Below are positions 24,348 through 36,362 of a stretch of DNA of 42,192 bases, in pieces (within the stretch, counting starts at the first letter, position 1; each line of letters begins with the position of its first letter). A model generated the notes under the pieces. That model was given only the letters and a program-made list of their open reading frames with translations, did not search any database and was not told the DNA's origin. Source of the stretch: Thermoanaerobaculia bacterium (GTDB taxonomy: Bacteria; Acidobacteriota; Thermoanaerobaculia; Multivoradales; JAGPDF01); assembly GCA_018057705.1 (NCBI GenBank), contig JAGPDF010000018.1, positions 16,794 to 58,985 on the forward strand. The letters run 5' to 3'. The position numbers and the translations under genes are program-made.

Positions 24348-24373
24348 ACAGAACTTCGACAGGAGTCCGAATC

Positions 24374-26002
<1,629 letters not shown>

Positions 26003-30600: not shown

Positions 30601-31812
30601 ATGTCCGACTCCGACCTGTTGCAGAAGATCGACGGCGAAATCGAGCGCCTGTCCCCGGTCGGGCTGGCGGCCGAGCTCATCCGCATCCCGAGCCATCCCG
30701 GAATCGAGCGCCAGGAGGAGAAGGTGGTTCTGGCGCTGGGGCGATTCCTCGGCGAGCGCGATCTCGGCGTGCAGCTCGAGGAGGTCCTGCCTGGGCGCCC
30801 GAACCTGATGGTCAGCGTCCAGGGCGAGCGTCCGGGTCCTCACCTGCTGCTCTGCGGGCACACCGACACGGTGCCGCTCAACTCCGGCGACCCGGGATTC
30901 GGCCTCTCGGGCGAGATTCGCGAAGGGCGGCTCCTCGGGCGCGGCTCGGTGGACATGAAGGGCGCCGTCGCCGCGATGGCGACAGCGGTGGTCGCGTTGT
31001 CGCGCCATCTTCCGGCGGGCCGCGTCTCCTTCTCTGCCGTCATCGACGAGGAGATGGAGAGCCTCGGCGCCGAGCAGCTCGTCGATACCAGCTTCCGGGC
31101 CGACGGCGCCGTCGTCGGCGAGCCGACCTCGAACCGGATCGCCCTCGGGCACAAGGGGCTCGAATGGTTGGAGGTCCACTTCCAGGGGCGCTCTGCGCAC
31201 GGCGGCACGCCGGAGATGGGGGTCAACGCAGTCTCGGCCGCGGGGATGTTCGTCGCCCTGGTCGAGAACGAGCTCAAGCCGCGCCTGCTGGCGAGGCGGC
31301 ATCCGATCCTGGGCCCGCCGACGCTCAACTTCGGGACGATTCGCGGCGGCGACCAGCCGTCCACGGTGGCCGCTACCTGCCTGCTGACCCTCGATCGGCG
31401 CACGGTGCCGGGAGAGAACTTCCAGAGCATCGTGGCCGAGCTGACCGACCTGCTGGAGCGGATCGAGCGCGTCTTCCCCGGGCTGCATACCGTCGTGCGC
31501 CGCGTGCAAGGTGGGATGGGCAACCTCCTCCACGTCGCGCTGGTCACCTCGCCCGACTCCCCGCTCGCGCTCGCGGCGCAGACGGCGCGCCGCCAGGTCT
31601 GCGGTGAGGTCGGCGAGCTCACCACCTTCCCGGCCTGGACCGACGGCGCCCTGCTCTCCGGCTACGCGGGAATTCCGACGATCATTCTCGGTCCGGGCGA
31701 CATCTCTCTCGCGCACTCCCCGCGCGAGTCGGCCCCGGTCGCCGAGATCGAAGAAGCCGCCCGCCTCTACGCCCACCTGGCGCTCGCCTTCTGCGCCGGA
31801 GCGGGGGTGTGA
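30601..31812 (+). CDS. M20 family peptidase/deacylase (ArgE/DapE-like)
   Basis: 403-residue di-zinc hydrolase. The metal and catalytic residues of the M20 family are visible: His87 and Asp89 (GHTDT), the bridging Asp118 (VDMKG), the Glu150-Glu151 pair (DEEME), a later VGEPTSN acidic ligand, and His372 near the C terminus. The inserted dimerisation (lid) domain spans about 175-290. Members remove acyl groups or cleave dipeptides; ArgE and DapE act on N-acetylornithine and N-succinyl-diaminopimelate. Which substrate applies here cannot be read. Context (transporter, aminotransferase, aldehyde dehydrogenase) suggests release of a free amino acid with a second amino group. It is followed by a transporter overlapping its stop (GTGA). 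Confidence 0.9.
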   Translation: MSDSDLLQKIDGEIERLSPVGLAAELIRIPSHPGIERQEEKVVLALGRFLGERDLGVQLEEVLPGRPNLMVSVQGERPGPHLLLCGHTDTVPLNSGDPGFGLSGEIREGRLLGRGSVDMKGAVAAMATAVVALSRHLPAGRVSFSAVIDEEMESLGAEQLVDTSFRADGAVVGEPTSNRIALGHKGLEWLEVHFQGRSAHGGTPEMGVNAVSAAGMFVALVENELKPRLLARRHPILGPPTLNFGTIRGGDQPSTVAATCLLTLDRRTVPGENFQSIVAELTDLLERIERVFPGLHTVVRRVQGGMGNLLHVALVTSPDSPLALAAQTARRQVCGEVGELTTFPAWTDGALLSGYAGIPTIILGPGDISLAHSPRESAPVAEIEEAARLYAHLALAFCAGAGV

Positions 31813-33170
31813 AGCTCAGGGTTCCGCATACTTTCGTCCTGCTCTTTGCGCTCGTCGCGCTGGCGGCGATCGCTACGCATCTGCTGCCGGCGGGGGAGTA
31901 TCAGCGCACCGAAGTCGGGGGACGGCAGCTGGTCGATCCCGACTCCTACCGGCCGATCGCGGCCCGGCCGGCGACGCTGGGTGACGTCTTCCTCGCCTGG
32001 CCGCGCGGTCTCGCGGCGACCGCCTCGATCGTCTTTTACATCTTCATCATCGGGGGGGCGTTCGGCGTCCTGCAGGCCACGGGCGCCCTCGACGCCCTGA
32101 TCGCCGGTGTCGTCGCGGCGGCACGCGGGCGCGGCGAGGTCATCCTGCCGGCGCTCATGCTGCTGTTCGCGATCGGCGGCGGCACGATCGGCATGGCCGA
32201 GGAGACGTTGCCGTTCCTGCCCGGGCTGGTGCTGCTCGCCAAGCGGCTCGGCTACGACGAGGTGGTCGGCGGCGCGATCGCGCTGGTCGGCGCCGGAGCC
32301 GGTTTCGCCGGCGCCTTCATGAATCCGTTCACCGTCGGGGTGGGCCAGGCGATCGCCGGCTTGCCGCTCTTCTCGGGGATGGGCTATCGATTGATCGTCT
32401 GGTTCGTCCTGACGACCGTGACCATCGTCTACGTCGCGTGGTACGCGGGCCGGCATCGCGTGGCGCTGCCGGCGAATCCAGGACCGCCGGCGTCCGCCGG
32501 AGAGCCGCCGGCGTTCCGGCTGGCGAACCGGCAGGCCGGAGTGCTGGCGATCCTGTTCGCGGCGTTCGTCCTGCTCGCGGTCGGATGCCTGCGCTGGGAG
32601 TGGGGTTTGCTCGAGCTCTCGGCGCTGTTCGTGGCTGTCGGAGTTGCCGGCGGGCTGGTCGGCGGATTGGGGAGCGACGGCACGGCAGAGGAATTCCTGA
32701 AGGGCGCCTCCGCTTTCGCCGGCGCGGCGCTCGTGGTGGGTCTGGCGCGCGGCGTGCTGGTCATCTTCGACGCCGCGCGCGTCACCGACGGGATCCTGCA
32801 TGCGATGGCCCAGGCGGTGCGCGGCCTCCCGGAGGGCGCGACCGTCGCGGGCATCTACTTCGTGCAGATCGTCCTGTCGTACCTCGTGCCGTCCGGAAGT
32901 GGTCAGGCGGCCCTCTCCCTGCCGATCCTGACGCCGCTCGCCGACCTCACCGGCGTGACCCGGCAGACGAGCGTCCTCGCCTATCAGTTCGGCGACGGCT
33001 TCTCGAATATCTTCACGCCGACTCAAGGTTACTTCATGGCCGGGCTGGCGCTCATCGGTGTGCCGTGGACCCGGTGGGTGAAGTTCCTCTGGCCGCTGCA
33101 GGTGATCTGGCTCGTCCTCGGGCTCGTCTTCCTGCTCATCGCCCAGGCCATGCGCTGGGGTCCGTTCTAG
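31809..33170 (+). CDS. YfcC-family transporter
   Basis: 453-residue membrane protein with about 11 helices. The start [12 protein letters not shown] and the [10 protein letters not shown] segment after the first helix are the standard opening of the YfcC family, and the late [17 protein letters not shown] motif is typical too. The family is related to C4-dicarboxylate carriers and predicted basic amino-acid/ornithine antiporters; transport specificity is not established. The GTG at 31809 overlaps the M20 stop by four bases, which strongly couples the two. Position between a deacylase and an aminotransferase suggests uptake of the substrate handled by those enzymes. Confidence 0.88.
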
Positions 33171-33174
33171 CTCC

Positions 33175-34497
33175 ATGCCGCATCGATTCCCGGAGAGCGC
33201 GGTTTTCTACCGCAAGTTGCGCCACGATTTTCCGCTGGCAGTGCGCGCCGAAGGTTCGTGGATCGAAGACGAGACAGGCCGTCGCTGGCTCGACGCTTCG
33301 GGGGGAGCGGTGGTCGCGAACCTCGGGCACGCCGGCCCGCTCGCCGGCGAGATCGCCGACGCCGTCGCCGCCGAGATCCGCACCCTCGGCTACATCAACG
33401 GCACCCAGTTCACTCACCGCGCGGTCGAGGCGCTGTCGGCCGAGCTCGTCGCTCTCACCCCCGGCGATCTCGACTTCGCCTACTTTCTCGCCAGCGGGTC
33501 GGAGGCGGTCGAGGCGGCGGTGAAGCTCGCGCGCCAGGTGCAGGTCGAGTCCGGCCGACCGGAGAAGTGGAAGGTCATCTCGCGCGTGCCGTCGTACCAC
33601 GGCAACACCCTCGCCGCCCTCGCCCTCTCGGGGCGCGAGCACTACCGGACGATCTACGGCCCGCTCCTCCTCGACCTGCCGCGGATCCCGGCGCCCGACC
33701 TCTATCGTGAGCCGGAGGGGCCCGGCGCGACCGGCGAGGCGCTCGAAGCCGAGATCCAGCGCCAGGGAGCCGACTCCATCGCCGCCTTCATCGCCGAGCC
33801 GATCGGCGGCTCGTCCTCCGGAGCGACCGTCCCGACGCGCGAGTACTGGCGCCGTGTGGCCGAGCTCTGCCGCCGCCACGACATCCTCCTCATCGCCGAC
33901 GAGGTGCTCTGCGGCATGGGGCGGACCGGGCGCCTCTTCGCCTGCGAGCACTTCGAGCTGGTGCCCGACATTCTCGTGCTCGGCAAGGGCCTGAATGCCG
34001 GGGCTCTGCCGCTCTCGGCAGTGGTGGCGCGGCGCGGCCTGGTGGAACGCCTGGCGGCGGGAAGCGGCGCGTTCAATCACGCCCAGACCTACTCGCACCA
34101 TCCGGCGCTCTGCGCGGCGGGTCTCGCCACGTTGCGCGCCCTCGTGCAGGAGCGCCTCGTCGAACGGGTCGCCCGGCTCGAAGCTCCGCTCTTCGGCGCT
34201 CTCGAGCGGCTGCGCGGACACGTGGCGGTCGGCGACATCCGCGGCCGGGGCTTCCTCGCGGCGGTCGAGTTCGTTGCCGACCGTGCGACGAAGCGGCCTT
34301 TCGAGCGCTCCCTGCGCTTCGCCGAGCGCCTCACCGAACGGGCGTTCGCGAACGGACTGATCGTCTGGCCGAACGTCGGCAACGCCGACGGCCAAAGCGG
34401 CGATCTCATCATCGTCGCGCCGCCGTTCACCGCGACCGAAGAGGACCTCGAAGAGATCGTTCGCCGACTCGATGGGACCCTGAAGGAGATGACATGA
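33175..34497 (+). CDS. Class III PLP-dependent aminotransferase
   Basis: 440-residue fold-type I aminotransferase of the ornithine/omega-amino-acid group. The PLP-binding Asp242 (ADEVLCGMGRTG) and Schiff-base Lys271 (LGKGLNAG) are in place, with an SGSEAVEAAVKLARQ motif near 108-122 and the SYHGNTLAAL motif downstream. Annotation systems commonly call this type aspartate aminotransferase family protein, but the substrate is more likely a diamine or omega-amino acid. It starts four bases after the transporter and overlaps the downstream aldehyde dehydrogenase by four bases. Together they suggest transamination to a semialdehyde that the next enzyme oxidises. Confidence 0.9.
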   Translation: MPHRFPESAVFYRKLRHDFPLAVRAEGSWIEDETGRRWLDASGGAVVANLGHAGPLAGEIADAVAAEIRTLGYINGTQFTHRAVEALSAELVALTPGDLDFAYFLASGSEAVEAAVKLARQVQVESGRPEKWKVISRVPSYHGNTLAALALSGREHYRTIYGPLLLDLPRIPAPDLYREPEGPGATGEALEAEIQRQGADSIAAFIAEPIGGSSSGATVPTREYWRRVAELCRRHDILLIADEVLCGMGRTGRLFACEHFELVPDILVLGKGLNAGALPLSAVVARRGLVERLAAGSGAFNHAQTYSHHPALCAAGLATLRALVQERLVERVARLEAPLFGALERLRGHVAVGDIRGRGFLAAVEFVADRATKRPFERSLRFAERLTERAFANGLIVWPNVGNADGQSGDLIIVAPPFTATEEDLEEIVRRLDGTLKEMT

Positions 34498-36086
34498 GCG
34501 AATCCCGCCGGATCACCTACACCTCGACCGCCACCGATCCCGAGTTCCGTGCCAGCTTCGATCGTGAGCTCGCTCGTGTCCGCGGGCGCTTTCCGCTCGC
34601 GCTCGGTGGCAACGTCGGCGAGGGGCCGGTCGAAGGGCTGCCCGCGCATCCTGTGGTGTCGCCGATCGACACCCGCCTCGTCGTCGCCAGGGTCGCGATC
34701 GCGACCCCGGGGGAGGTCGAGGCCGCGGTGGGTTTCGCGCGCTCCGCCTTTCCCCGCTGGCGGGCGCTCGCGTGGCAGCGCCGGGCCGAGGTCGTCCGCG
34801 ACGCCGCGGAGCGGATTGCGGCGAGGAATCTCGAGCTCGCGGCCTGGATGGTCTACGAGGTCGGCAAGACCCGTCTCGAGGCGATGGCGGAGGTGGAGGA
34901 GTCGGCCGACCTGCTGCGCTACTACGCCGAGCGCATGGAGTCCCGGCACGGCTACCGGCGGCCGCTCGCCCGGATGAGCCCGGCGGAGACGACGGAGAGC
35001 GTCCTCCTGCCCTACGGCGTCTGGGCGGTCGTCTCGCCGTGGAACTTCCCCTCGGCGCTCGCCGCAGGGATGATCGCCGGGGCTCTCCTCGGTGGCAACA
35101 CGGTGGTCTTCAAGCCGGCGCTCGACGCGCCGGTCTCGGGGGAGCTCCTCTGCCAGGCGTTCTGGGACGCCGGTCTGCCGCGCGATGCCCTGCAGCTCGT
35201 GCACGGTCCGGGTGCCACGGTCGGCGCGGCGCTCCTCGCCGACGAGAGGATCGCCGGCGTGGCTTTCACCGGTTCGTCGGCGGTCGGCATGAGAATCGTG
35301 CGCGCCGCGACGGAAGGGGATGCCGGACCGCGTCCGGTGGTGGTCGAGATGGGCGGCAAGAACGCCTGCCTGGTGACTGCGACGGCCGACCTCGACGCCG
35401 CCGCGGAGGGCGTCGCCCGTTCGGCCTTCGGCTTCGGCGGACAGAAGTGCAGCGCCTGCTCCCGCGTCTACGTCGAGCGCGCGGTGGCCCAGCCGTTTCT
35501 CGATCGGCTGATTCGGCGCACGGAGGCGATGAAGGTCGGGGACCCGGCAGCGGGCGACCCGGCGCTCGGGCCGGTCATTCGACAGAGCGCGCTCGAGAGC
35601 TACCGCCGCTATGTCGAGGAGATCGTCGCGAGCGGAGGCGAGATCGTGAGCGGCGGGCAGGTTCTGAGCTCCGGGGATCTCGCCTGCGGTTTCTATGCTC
35701 AGCCGACGATTGGCCGCCTTCCTTCACCGGACCATCTGCTTTTTTCCGAGGAGATGTTCCTGCCGATCCTGCTCTTTCAGGAGGTGGAGGACCTCGCCGA
35801 AGGGATCGCACGCGCCAATGCCGTGCCCTACGGGCTCACCGCCGGTCTCTTCACCACCGACGAGCACGAAAAGCAGTACTTTCTCGAGCGCATCGAAGCG
35901 GGCGTGCTCTACGTCAACCGCAGAAGCGGCGCGACTACCGGCGCCTGGCCCGGGATCAACCCGTTCGGCGGCTGGAAGGCGAGCGGAGCGCCCGGTCCCG
36001 CGGCGCTCGGCCCCGACTACCTGTTGAACTTCCTGCGCGAACAGAGCCGCACGGTGAACGGCTTCGGCGACTCGCCGCCGGCGTAG
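34494..36086 (+). CDS. Aldehyde dehydrogenase, RocA/P5C-dehydrogenase-like
   Basis: 530-residue NAD(P)-dependent aldehyde dehydrogenase. General base Glu285 (EMGGKN) and nucleophile Cys319 (GGQKCSACS) are present, as is the SPWNFPSALAAG nucleotide-binding segment. The length and motifs fit the RocA-type P5C-dehydrogenase/semialdehyde dehydrogenase group. It is not a duplicate of the enzyme at 24374, whose motifs follow the eukaryotic-style type. The ATG at 34494 overlaps the aminotransferase stop. In this operon it would oxidise the semialdehyde made by that enzyme to a carboxylate, for example glutamate semialdehyde to glutamate. The exact substrate is inferred. Confidence 0.9.
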   Translation: MSESRRITYTSTATDPEFRASFDRELARVRGRFPLALGGNVGEGPVEGLPAHPVVSPIDTRLVVARVAIATPGEVEAAVGFARSAFPRWRALAWQRRAEVVRDAAERIAARNLELAAWMVYEVGKTRLEAMAEVEESADLLRYYAERMESRHGYRRPLARMSPAETTESVLLPYGVWAVVSPWNFPSALAAGMIAGALLGGNTVVFKPALDAPVSGELLCQAFWDAGLPRDALQLVHGPGATVGAALLADERIAGVAFTGSSAVGMRIVRAATEGDAGPRPVVVEMGGKNACLVTATADLDAAAEGVARSAFGFGGQKCSACSRVYVERAVAQPFLDRLIRRTEAMKVGDPAAGDPALGPVIRQSALESYRRYVEEIVASGGEIVSGGQVLSSGDLACGFYAQPTIGRLPSPDHLLFSEEMFLPILLFQEVEDLAEGIARANAVPYGLTAGLFTTDEHEKQYFLERIEAGVLYVNRRSGATTGAWPGINPFGGWKASGAPGPAALGPDYLLNFLREQSRTVNGFGDSPPA

Positions 36087-36095
36087 GCCGACGGC

Positions 36096-36362
36096 TTACT
36101 GAGCCATCGCTCCCGAGAAGGCGCCGTACATGCTCAGGGAGCTGCCGATCACAGCGACCACCGCGCAGACCAGCCAGCGCAGGAAGGGCGTCTTGCAGGC
36201 CGGCCAGTTCTTGGCGATGTAGACCAGGATCACGAACGGGATGAGCAGGCTGCACAGGCCCCAGGCGAGGCTGGTCTTGAATGCCAGGATCAGGATCTGG
36301 ATGGTGAAGATCAACGCTCCGATGCCGCCCACGACCGAGAGAATCATTCCCAACGTAGCCAT
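36096..36362 (-). CDS. Small membrane protein of unknown function
   Basis: 88 residues with about three hydrophobic helices (roughly 5-27, 33-50 and 60-80) and almost no soluble part. Two Cys lie in the middle of the chain, one of them in NWPACK. I do not recognise a family. The ATG at 36362 is preceded by a strong GGAGGAAG ribosome-binding site, which supports it as a real gene despite its size. It lies in a convergent position against the aldehyde dehydrogenase (nine bases apart) and has a 312-base upstream gap that may hold its promoter. It could be a membrane stress or regulatory peptide. Confidence 0.6.
   Translation of the reverse strand: MATLGMILSVVGGIGALIFTIQILILAFKTSLAWGLCSLLIPFVILVYIAKNWPACKTPFLRWLVCAVVAVIGSSLSMYGAFSGAMAQ

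Follow-up and report, generated by a model that had tools for sequence, protein, structure and literature searches.

Operon layout and protein families

The window analysed here is a 42,192-nt stretch of contig JAGPDF010000018.1 from a Thermoanaerobaculia bacterium (assembly GCA_018057705.1), and its element of interest is a set of four co-oriented open reading frames (ORFs) on the + strand at 30601–36086. In the ORF list they encode, in order, an M20 hydrolase, a DcuC/YfcC-type carrier, a class III aminotransferase (AT1) and an aldehyde dehydrogenase (ALDH). An earlier note, made from the letters alone, had named these gene families and their tight packing, with overlaps at two of the three junctions and four bases at the other, and both the ORF coordinates and the Pfam matches agree with it. 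The hydrolase and carrier genes share a 4-nt GTGA overlap (31809–31812), a 4-nt gap (33171–33174) separates the carrier gene from that of AT1, and the AT1 and ALDH genes share a 4-nt ATGA overlap (34494–34497). Third-position G+C is 0.87–0.90 in each gene, which therefore marks all four as coding; start and stop codons are intact. Judged from the spacing, the four genes are probably co-transcribed, and we read the set as a real operon. Our preferred interpretation, to which we give an even chance, is that it would scavenge beta-lysine (3,6-diaminohexanoate), either free or N-acyl/peptide-bound, and oxidise it in a route ending in 3-oxoadipate.

All four proteins match their Pfam families far over the cut-offs (Peptidase_M20 and M20_dimer, DcuC, Aminotran_3 and Aldedh; 300.5 bits against a cut-off of 30.5 for AT1), and all of them fall short of the specific functional cut-offs of NCBIfam. 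The hydrolase scores 204.1 bits with the ArgE/DapE model TIGR01910 (cut-off 217.6) and 163.3 bits with the acetylornithine deacetylase model TIGR01892 (cut-off 297.7). The carrier belongs to the DcuC superfamily, so the YfcC label proposed earlier holds at that level, but the model for the YfcC basic amino acid antiporter itself (NF008611) is missed, at 293.5 versus 500 bits. Among solved structures, AT1 is closest in sequence to 3I4J, itself an aminotransferase of class III.

An ALDH clade and its gene neighbourhoods

The solved structures nearest to the ALDH are 1-pyrroline-5-carboxylate (P5C) dehydrogenases, yet it scores below every P5C dehydrogenase cut-off: 224.8 versus 613.6 bits for TIGR01236, 356.4 versus 659.65 for TIGR01237, 279 versus 485.2 for TIGR01238 and, with the best of these models (PRK03137), 391.9 versus 648. 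The succinate-semialdehyde dehydrogenase models are missed as well (300.3 versus 521 and 232.6 versus 646.35). A tree of 100 sequences, comprising 99 from the alignment, which excludes sequences with internal stops, and one Rhizobium protein, groups 75 loci with the window ALDH and the Rhizobium plasmid protein as a single clade, with a local support of 0.78, or 0.996 when locus L070 is included. In the alignment, all 77 clade members carry three extra residues right before a Thr-Gly-Ala stretch. This insert is absent from the P5C dehydrogenase of the window and from 21 of 22 ALDHs outside the clade, the exception being L070, which is sister to it. In the Thermus P5C dehydrogenase, the Thr-Gly-Ala stretch, together with the Ser that follows the catalytic Cys, presumably holds the substrate carboxylate. 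In alignment, the window ALDH keeps both, and the insert lies in the presumed substrate loop. We read this as a P5C dehydrogenase-related enzyme that would act on a similar but different amino-carboxylate semialdehyde. Because a true P5C dehydrogenase is encoded 8 kb upstream, the operon ALDH would be unneeded for proline or ornithine oxidation.

A scan for this ALDH across 84,980 species genomes returned 80 loci, and 20 of 297 genomes sampled from the phylum of the window gave a match at E 1e-110 or better; neighbours within 9 kb were labelled by tblastn with a protein panel. At the 77 loci with an ALDH identity of 41% or more, a second aminotransferase (AT2) lies nearby in 52, a first aminotransferase in 51 (9 of the window type and 42 of another type, AT1x) and subunit A of a coenzyme A (CoA) transferase in 44. 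A PcaR-type regulator (28/77), the thiolase PcaF (16/77), a WD40-propeller protein (27/77), an S9 peptidase (14/77) and a DmpA/BapA-type peptidase (13/77) also recur. The same classes are found at none of 22 loci with more distant ALDHs (34–40%). These counts are lowered by many relatives' contigs being short at the locus, and they include at least one genome twice, L063 and L262 being apparently one locus. Going by record titles, the clade occurs in Gamma- and Alphaproteobacteria, Gemmatimonadetes, Verrucomicrobia and Acidobacteria/Holophagae. The propeller protein of the L047–L102 operons (~856 aa, PD40/WD40) often lies directly downstream of AT2 and is probably a secreted hydrolase.

At the six loci with an AT1 at least 52% identical (L028, L029, L047, L050, L055 and L056), ALDH, AT2 and CoA-transferase subunit A each stand beside it in five, the last count taking in a fragment at the contig end of L028. 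AT1 directly abuts the CoA-transferase at L029, and so do more distant relatives (44%) at L030–L032. Because the window-type enzyme sits beside a CoA-transferase in relatives, the arrangement suggests that AT1 makes a 3-oxo acid by a later, beta-amino transamination. The semialdehyde step in relatives fits a separate aminotransferase of the PRK05769 family, or, at single loci, a saccharopine/lysine-dehydrogenase-like or flavin enzyme. Of the 297 phylum genomes, 8 contain both the aminotransferase and the ALDH, where 1.3 would be expected (hypergeometric 7e-6, uncorrected for kinship).

A proposed route from beta-lysine to 3-oxoadipate

The evidence for 3-oxoadipate comes from the relatives' loci. 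The Pseudoxanthomonas thiolase (L048) passes the PcaF equivalog model TIGR02430 (615.1 versus 597 bits). In Kordiimonas (L062), the regulator passes the PcaR/PcaU/PobR model TIGR02431 (288 versus 284.75), AT2 passes PRK05769 (586.8 versus 552), and the CoA-transferase subunits are 60–62% and 57–59% identical to those of the pcaIJF-type clusters of Pararhizobium (L276) and Azospirillum (L277), the latter of which also has pcaD, pcaC and pcaH genes. The relatives' operons have CoA-transferase subunits, a thiolase and an IclR-type regulator homologous to those of pcaR-pcaIJF clusters, but they are fed by aminotransferases and ALDH, and most of the genomes tested have no ring-cleavage dioxygenase. 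Specifically, intradiol dioxygenase is missing from 20 and PaaA from 21 of 22 genome entries with such loci, a set in which several are draft assemblies and at least one genome seems to be counted twice (L063 and G115, with the same identities and order). Neither was found in any of the 15 entries with PcaF in the ALDH locus. Since these PcaF-bearing genomes lack both, 3-oxoadipate there should arise from a non-aromatic source. On the 20 and 21 absences among the 22 entries, we reject an aromatic beta-ketoadipate operon for the relatives. Two transaminations and one semialdehyde oxidation convert beta-lysine to 3-oxoadipate.

Several loci link these genes to beta-lysine. On the Rhizobium sp. 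CB3171 plasmid NZ_CP121654.1 (L278), the insert-bearing clade ALDH lies in a region with a KamA-family aminomutase (233 bits, family cut-off 199.2), a GNAT protein, a histone-deacetylase-like protein, an FAD-dependent oxidoreductase and an aminotransferase nearest the PRK07483 family. The plasmid is typed conjugative, and the region resembles a mobile island for the catabolism of beta-amino acids. In genome G279, an AT1 relative (39%) lies one gene from a KamA-family protein whose best model, glutamate 2,3-aminomutase, is below cut-off. DmpA/BapA enzymes cut peptides having an N-terminal beta-amino acid, and the peptidase at L085 strongly matches both DmpA (1B65) and BapA (3N2W). The clusters L044 and L046 (genomes G035 and G022) hold AT1, an APC permease, a CoA-transferase, adjacent DmpA/BapA-like peptidases, an M28 peptidase and a saccharopine-dehydrogenase-type protein, with a thiolase in addition at L046. 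The best solved match of the saccharopine-dehydrogenase-type protein is PH1688, which we take to be a lysine dehydrogenase. L111 combines ALDH, AT1x, CoA-transferase and PcaF with a protein of the saccharopine-dehydrogenase Pfam type in place of AT2. KamA as a general partner is unsupported: no more than 24 of 51 genomes have a match exceeding the TIGR00238 cut-off, and EpmB of Gammaproteobacteria is presumably represented among these.

In the proposed route, beta-lysine or its N-acyl or peptide conjugate would enter through the carrier, and the M20 hydrolase would split the conjugate to release beta-lysine. An enzyme acting on the omega-amine, with its gene outside the operon (another aminotransferase of class III or, in some relatives, a protein resembling lysine dehydrogenase), would give 3-aminoadipate semialdehyde, which the operon ALDH would oxidise to 3-aminoadipate. 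AT1 would then transaminate the beta-amino group to yield 3-oxoadipate, and a PcaIJ-type CoA-transferase 13.5 kb downstream followed by a thiolase would deliver succinyl-CoA and acetyl-CoA. In the window genome, beta-lysine would be imported, with the omega-amine step and the thiolase reaction supplied by less specific enzymes. Gene identities, gene order, the relatives' conserved neighbourhood, the ALDH clade and its insert are observed; the reactions, the substrates and the existence of the unlinked steps in the window genome are what we infer from sequence. Beta-lysine is the likely substrate of the window operon. More broadly, and at slightly less than an even chance, these loci may represent a widespread new route in which beta-lysine passes through 3-aminoadipate semialdehyde and 3-aminoadipate to 3-oxoadipate and so joins the beta-ketoadipate pathway, the window ALDH and AT1 being its 3-aminoadipate enzymes. 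Putative sources would be beta-lysyl peptides, antibiotics such as streptothricin and the osmolyte N-acetyl-beta-lysine. We know of no gene assigned to a 3-aminoadipate semialdehyde dehydrogenase or a 3-aminoadipate transaminase, and the open-access literature searched gave no match for a 3-aminoadipate route from beta-lysine, which is not proof of absence.

The window genome has one match to CoA-transferase subunit A, 66% identical to the G169 query. It is paired with subunit B on the window contig, 13,461 bp beyond the ALDH, and is 50–54% identical to pcaI-position proteins; by our estimate, random placement in 5.08 Mb would put a CoA-transferase this close about once in 200. In the same genome, the best AT2 match, on G000:C50, is not accepted as an orthologue; it sits with a further aminotransferase (putrescine-aminotransferase-like by eye) and a saccharopine-dehydrogenase-like gene. 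The pairing of a class III aminotransferase with a saccharopine-dehydrogenase-like gene is conserved between L273 (G000:C50:14000-28000) and L274 (G026:C66), and L273 holds a further PRK05769-like aminotransferase. The window genome also encodes a KamA-family radical SAM protein of 123 bits in a 604-aa open frame (G000:C15:56641-57597; L155, L170), and similar sub-threshold proteins occur in G026, G153, G169 and G221. Because the same-order genomes among those listed have neither AT1 nor ALDH at the thresholds used, the operon looks sporadic in distribution.

Several results weigh against this assignment. The CoA-transferase of the window, near as it is, lies outside the operon. At the cut-offs used, the window genome has no AT2 orthologue (the closest AT2-like protein, encoded in a different cluster, has only 41% identity), no PcaF (best match 376.7 versus 597 bits) and no KamA-family protein (123.3 versus 199.2), although KamA would be unneeded if beta-lysine is imported; no omega-amine enzyme is linked to the operon. 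KamA stands beside ALDH at none of the 77 clade loci with two KamA queries, and the Rhizobium KamA protein scores 259 bits against the lysine 2,3-aminomutase cut-off of 525.4. In the phylum sample, the 17 ALDH-clade loci have a nearby CoA-transferase in 2 cases and AT2 in 1; the ALDH is mostly alone, and some genomes, e.g. G169, have AT1 and CoA-transferase elsewhere. G022 and G035 have AT1, CoA-transferase and (G022) thiolase, yet they are not among the ALDH matches, and clusters L044 and L046 are without ALDH. A window-type M20 or YfcC protein is likewise found beside the ALDH at 0 of 77 loci. Relatives of the M20 hydrolase (48–62% identity) occur in six genomes; the carrier adjoins it in two, G072 and G170, where the pair stands without AT1 and ALDH. 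Since the carrier is beside M20 in two genomes and neither is beside the 77 ALDH loci, the two thus form an independent module. The argument is weakest where it has the M20 enzyme release an acyl- or peptide-bound amino acid.

Table 1. Operon genes and flanking features, in window coordinates
Feature	Position	Strand	Evidence
M20 amidohydrolase, ArgE/DapE type, 403 aa	30601..31812	+	PF01546/PF07687; below every specific cut-off
DcuC/YfcC-superfamily carrier, predicted importer, 453 aa, GTG start	31809..33170	+	PF03606, 298.7 bits
Class III aminotransferase AT1, 440 aa, predicted beta-amino transaminase	33175..34497	+	PF00202; PRK07483 450.4 vs 485, below cut-off; orthologues by CoA-transferase and ALDH
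ALDH, distinct P5C dehydrogenase-related clade, 530 aa, predicted 3-aminoadipate semialdehyde dehydrogenase	34494..36086	+	PF00171; P5C dehydrogenase models below cut-off; 3-residue insert
APC-family amino acid permease, divergent from operon across ~66 bp	29089..~30534	-	PF13520
True P5C dehydrogenase, outside operon	~24362..26002, start codon unrefined	+	TIGR01236, 793.8 bits vs cut-off 613.6
88-aa hydrophobic ORF, convergent with operon	36096-36362	-	GC3 0.90, strong codon bias; no Pfam match

APC permeases, such as the one divergent from the operon, recur near AT1 or ALDH at L033, L035, L036, L044, L046 and L058.

Competing readings and significance

The main rival that remains, and the nearest known route, is the acetylated beta-lysine route, reportedly known from Barker's Pseudomonas work and suggested by the Bacillus kamA-yodPQRST operon. 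AT1 would transaminate N6-acetyl-beta-lysine to 3-oxo-6-acetamidohexanoate, CoA-transferase and thiolase would lead to 4-acetamidobutyryl-CoA, the M20 enzyme would release 4-aminobutyrate (GABA), and the ALDH would oxidise a later semialdehyde. The Pseudomonas route likewise joins a beta-amino transaminase, CoA-linked cleavage, an amide hydrolase and aldehyde oxidation, whereas here the omega-amine is seemingly oxidised to a carboxylate, giving 3-oxoadipate, with PcaIJ/PcaF/PcaR-type genes in relatives. The similarity of M20 and AT1 to PRK06915 and PRK06917, which we take to be YodQ and YodT, speaks for this rival, as do the GNAT and histone-deacetylase-like genes beside KamA in Rhizobium. YodT is presumably encoded in the Bacillus subtilis kamA operon (kamA-yodPQRST) with the M20 protein YodQ and CoA-transferase subunits, a set that resembles ours in its M20 enzyme, CoA-transferase and class III aminotransferase but differs in that the window genome has no KamA above cut-off, has an ALDH, and has an M20 far below the PRK06915 cut-off. 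An excerpt of a review (PMC6522883) gives 3I4J, the top match of the window AT1, as the closest solved relative of YodT, and in its table KamA and YodT have locus numbers close together and share the sigma factor SigE. Nevertheless, we consider this route unlikely: M20 scores 146 versus 428 bits with PRK06915 and AT1 394.3 versus 535 with PRK06917, the ALDH is P5C dehydrogenase-like and fails the succinate-semialdehyde dehydrogenase models, the 23 neighbour families listed from relatives include no acetyltransferase, although an M20 of another family (C11, PRK09133) recurs at 7 loci, and the relatives carry PcaF/PcaR.

The independence of the M20–carrier pair raises another reading, that a general peptide or acyl-amino-acid uptake pair landed upstream of an AT1–ALDH pair which alone is of the beta-lysine type. 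The occurrences in G072 and G170 and the 0 of 77 count fit it; the overlapping start and stop codons and the 4-bp spacing within one operon do not, and other peptidases (DmpA, M28, S9) recur in relatives' clusters. We regard this as rather improbable. The version of the earlier note, in which an N-acyl derivative of ornithine or lysine is taken up and loses its acyl group, AT1 forms an omega-semialdehyde and a RocA-like ALDH oxidises it to glutamate or 2-aminoadipate, we hold to be very unlikely. The order of functions, an M20 nearest ArgE/DapE and an ALDH whose closest solved structures are P5C dehydrogenases agree with it, but AT1 falls outside the ArgD family (TIGR00707, acetylornithine type, 222.7 versus 410.05) and the neighbourhood points to 3-oxoadipate. 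Ornithine degradation via glutamate semialdehyde is rejected on account of the true P5C dehydrogenase and the different ALDH clade with its altered loop. Lysine degradation via 2-aminoadipate leaves PcaF, PcaR and the CoA-transferase unexplained, and the piperideine-6-carboxylate dehydrogenase model gives 249.8 versus 730 bits. What stands of that note is its outline of a catabolic operon, plausibly for an acyl- or peptide-bound diamino acid, with carrier, amide hydrolase, transaminase and semialdehyde dehydrogenase; ornithine and ordinary lysine fit poorly, the RocA-like label and the use of AT1 as semialdehyde maker are unsupported, and substrate and label are probably wrong. The conserved-neighbourhood search it proposed retains AT1–ALDH at five of six loci and M20–YfcC at two of six, more than chance would give.

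If the beta-lysine reading is true, it would give a function to an unnamed ALDH clade and account for PcaR/PcaIJ/PcaF sets where a genome lacks aromatic ring cleavage. It would also point to a sink for the beta-lysine of antibiotics, osmolytes and modified proteins, in a group of loci whose culturable carriers include Pseudoxanthomonas and Kordiimonas.

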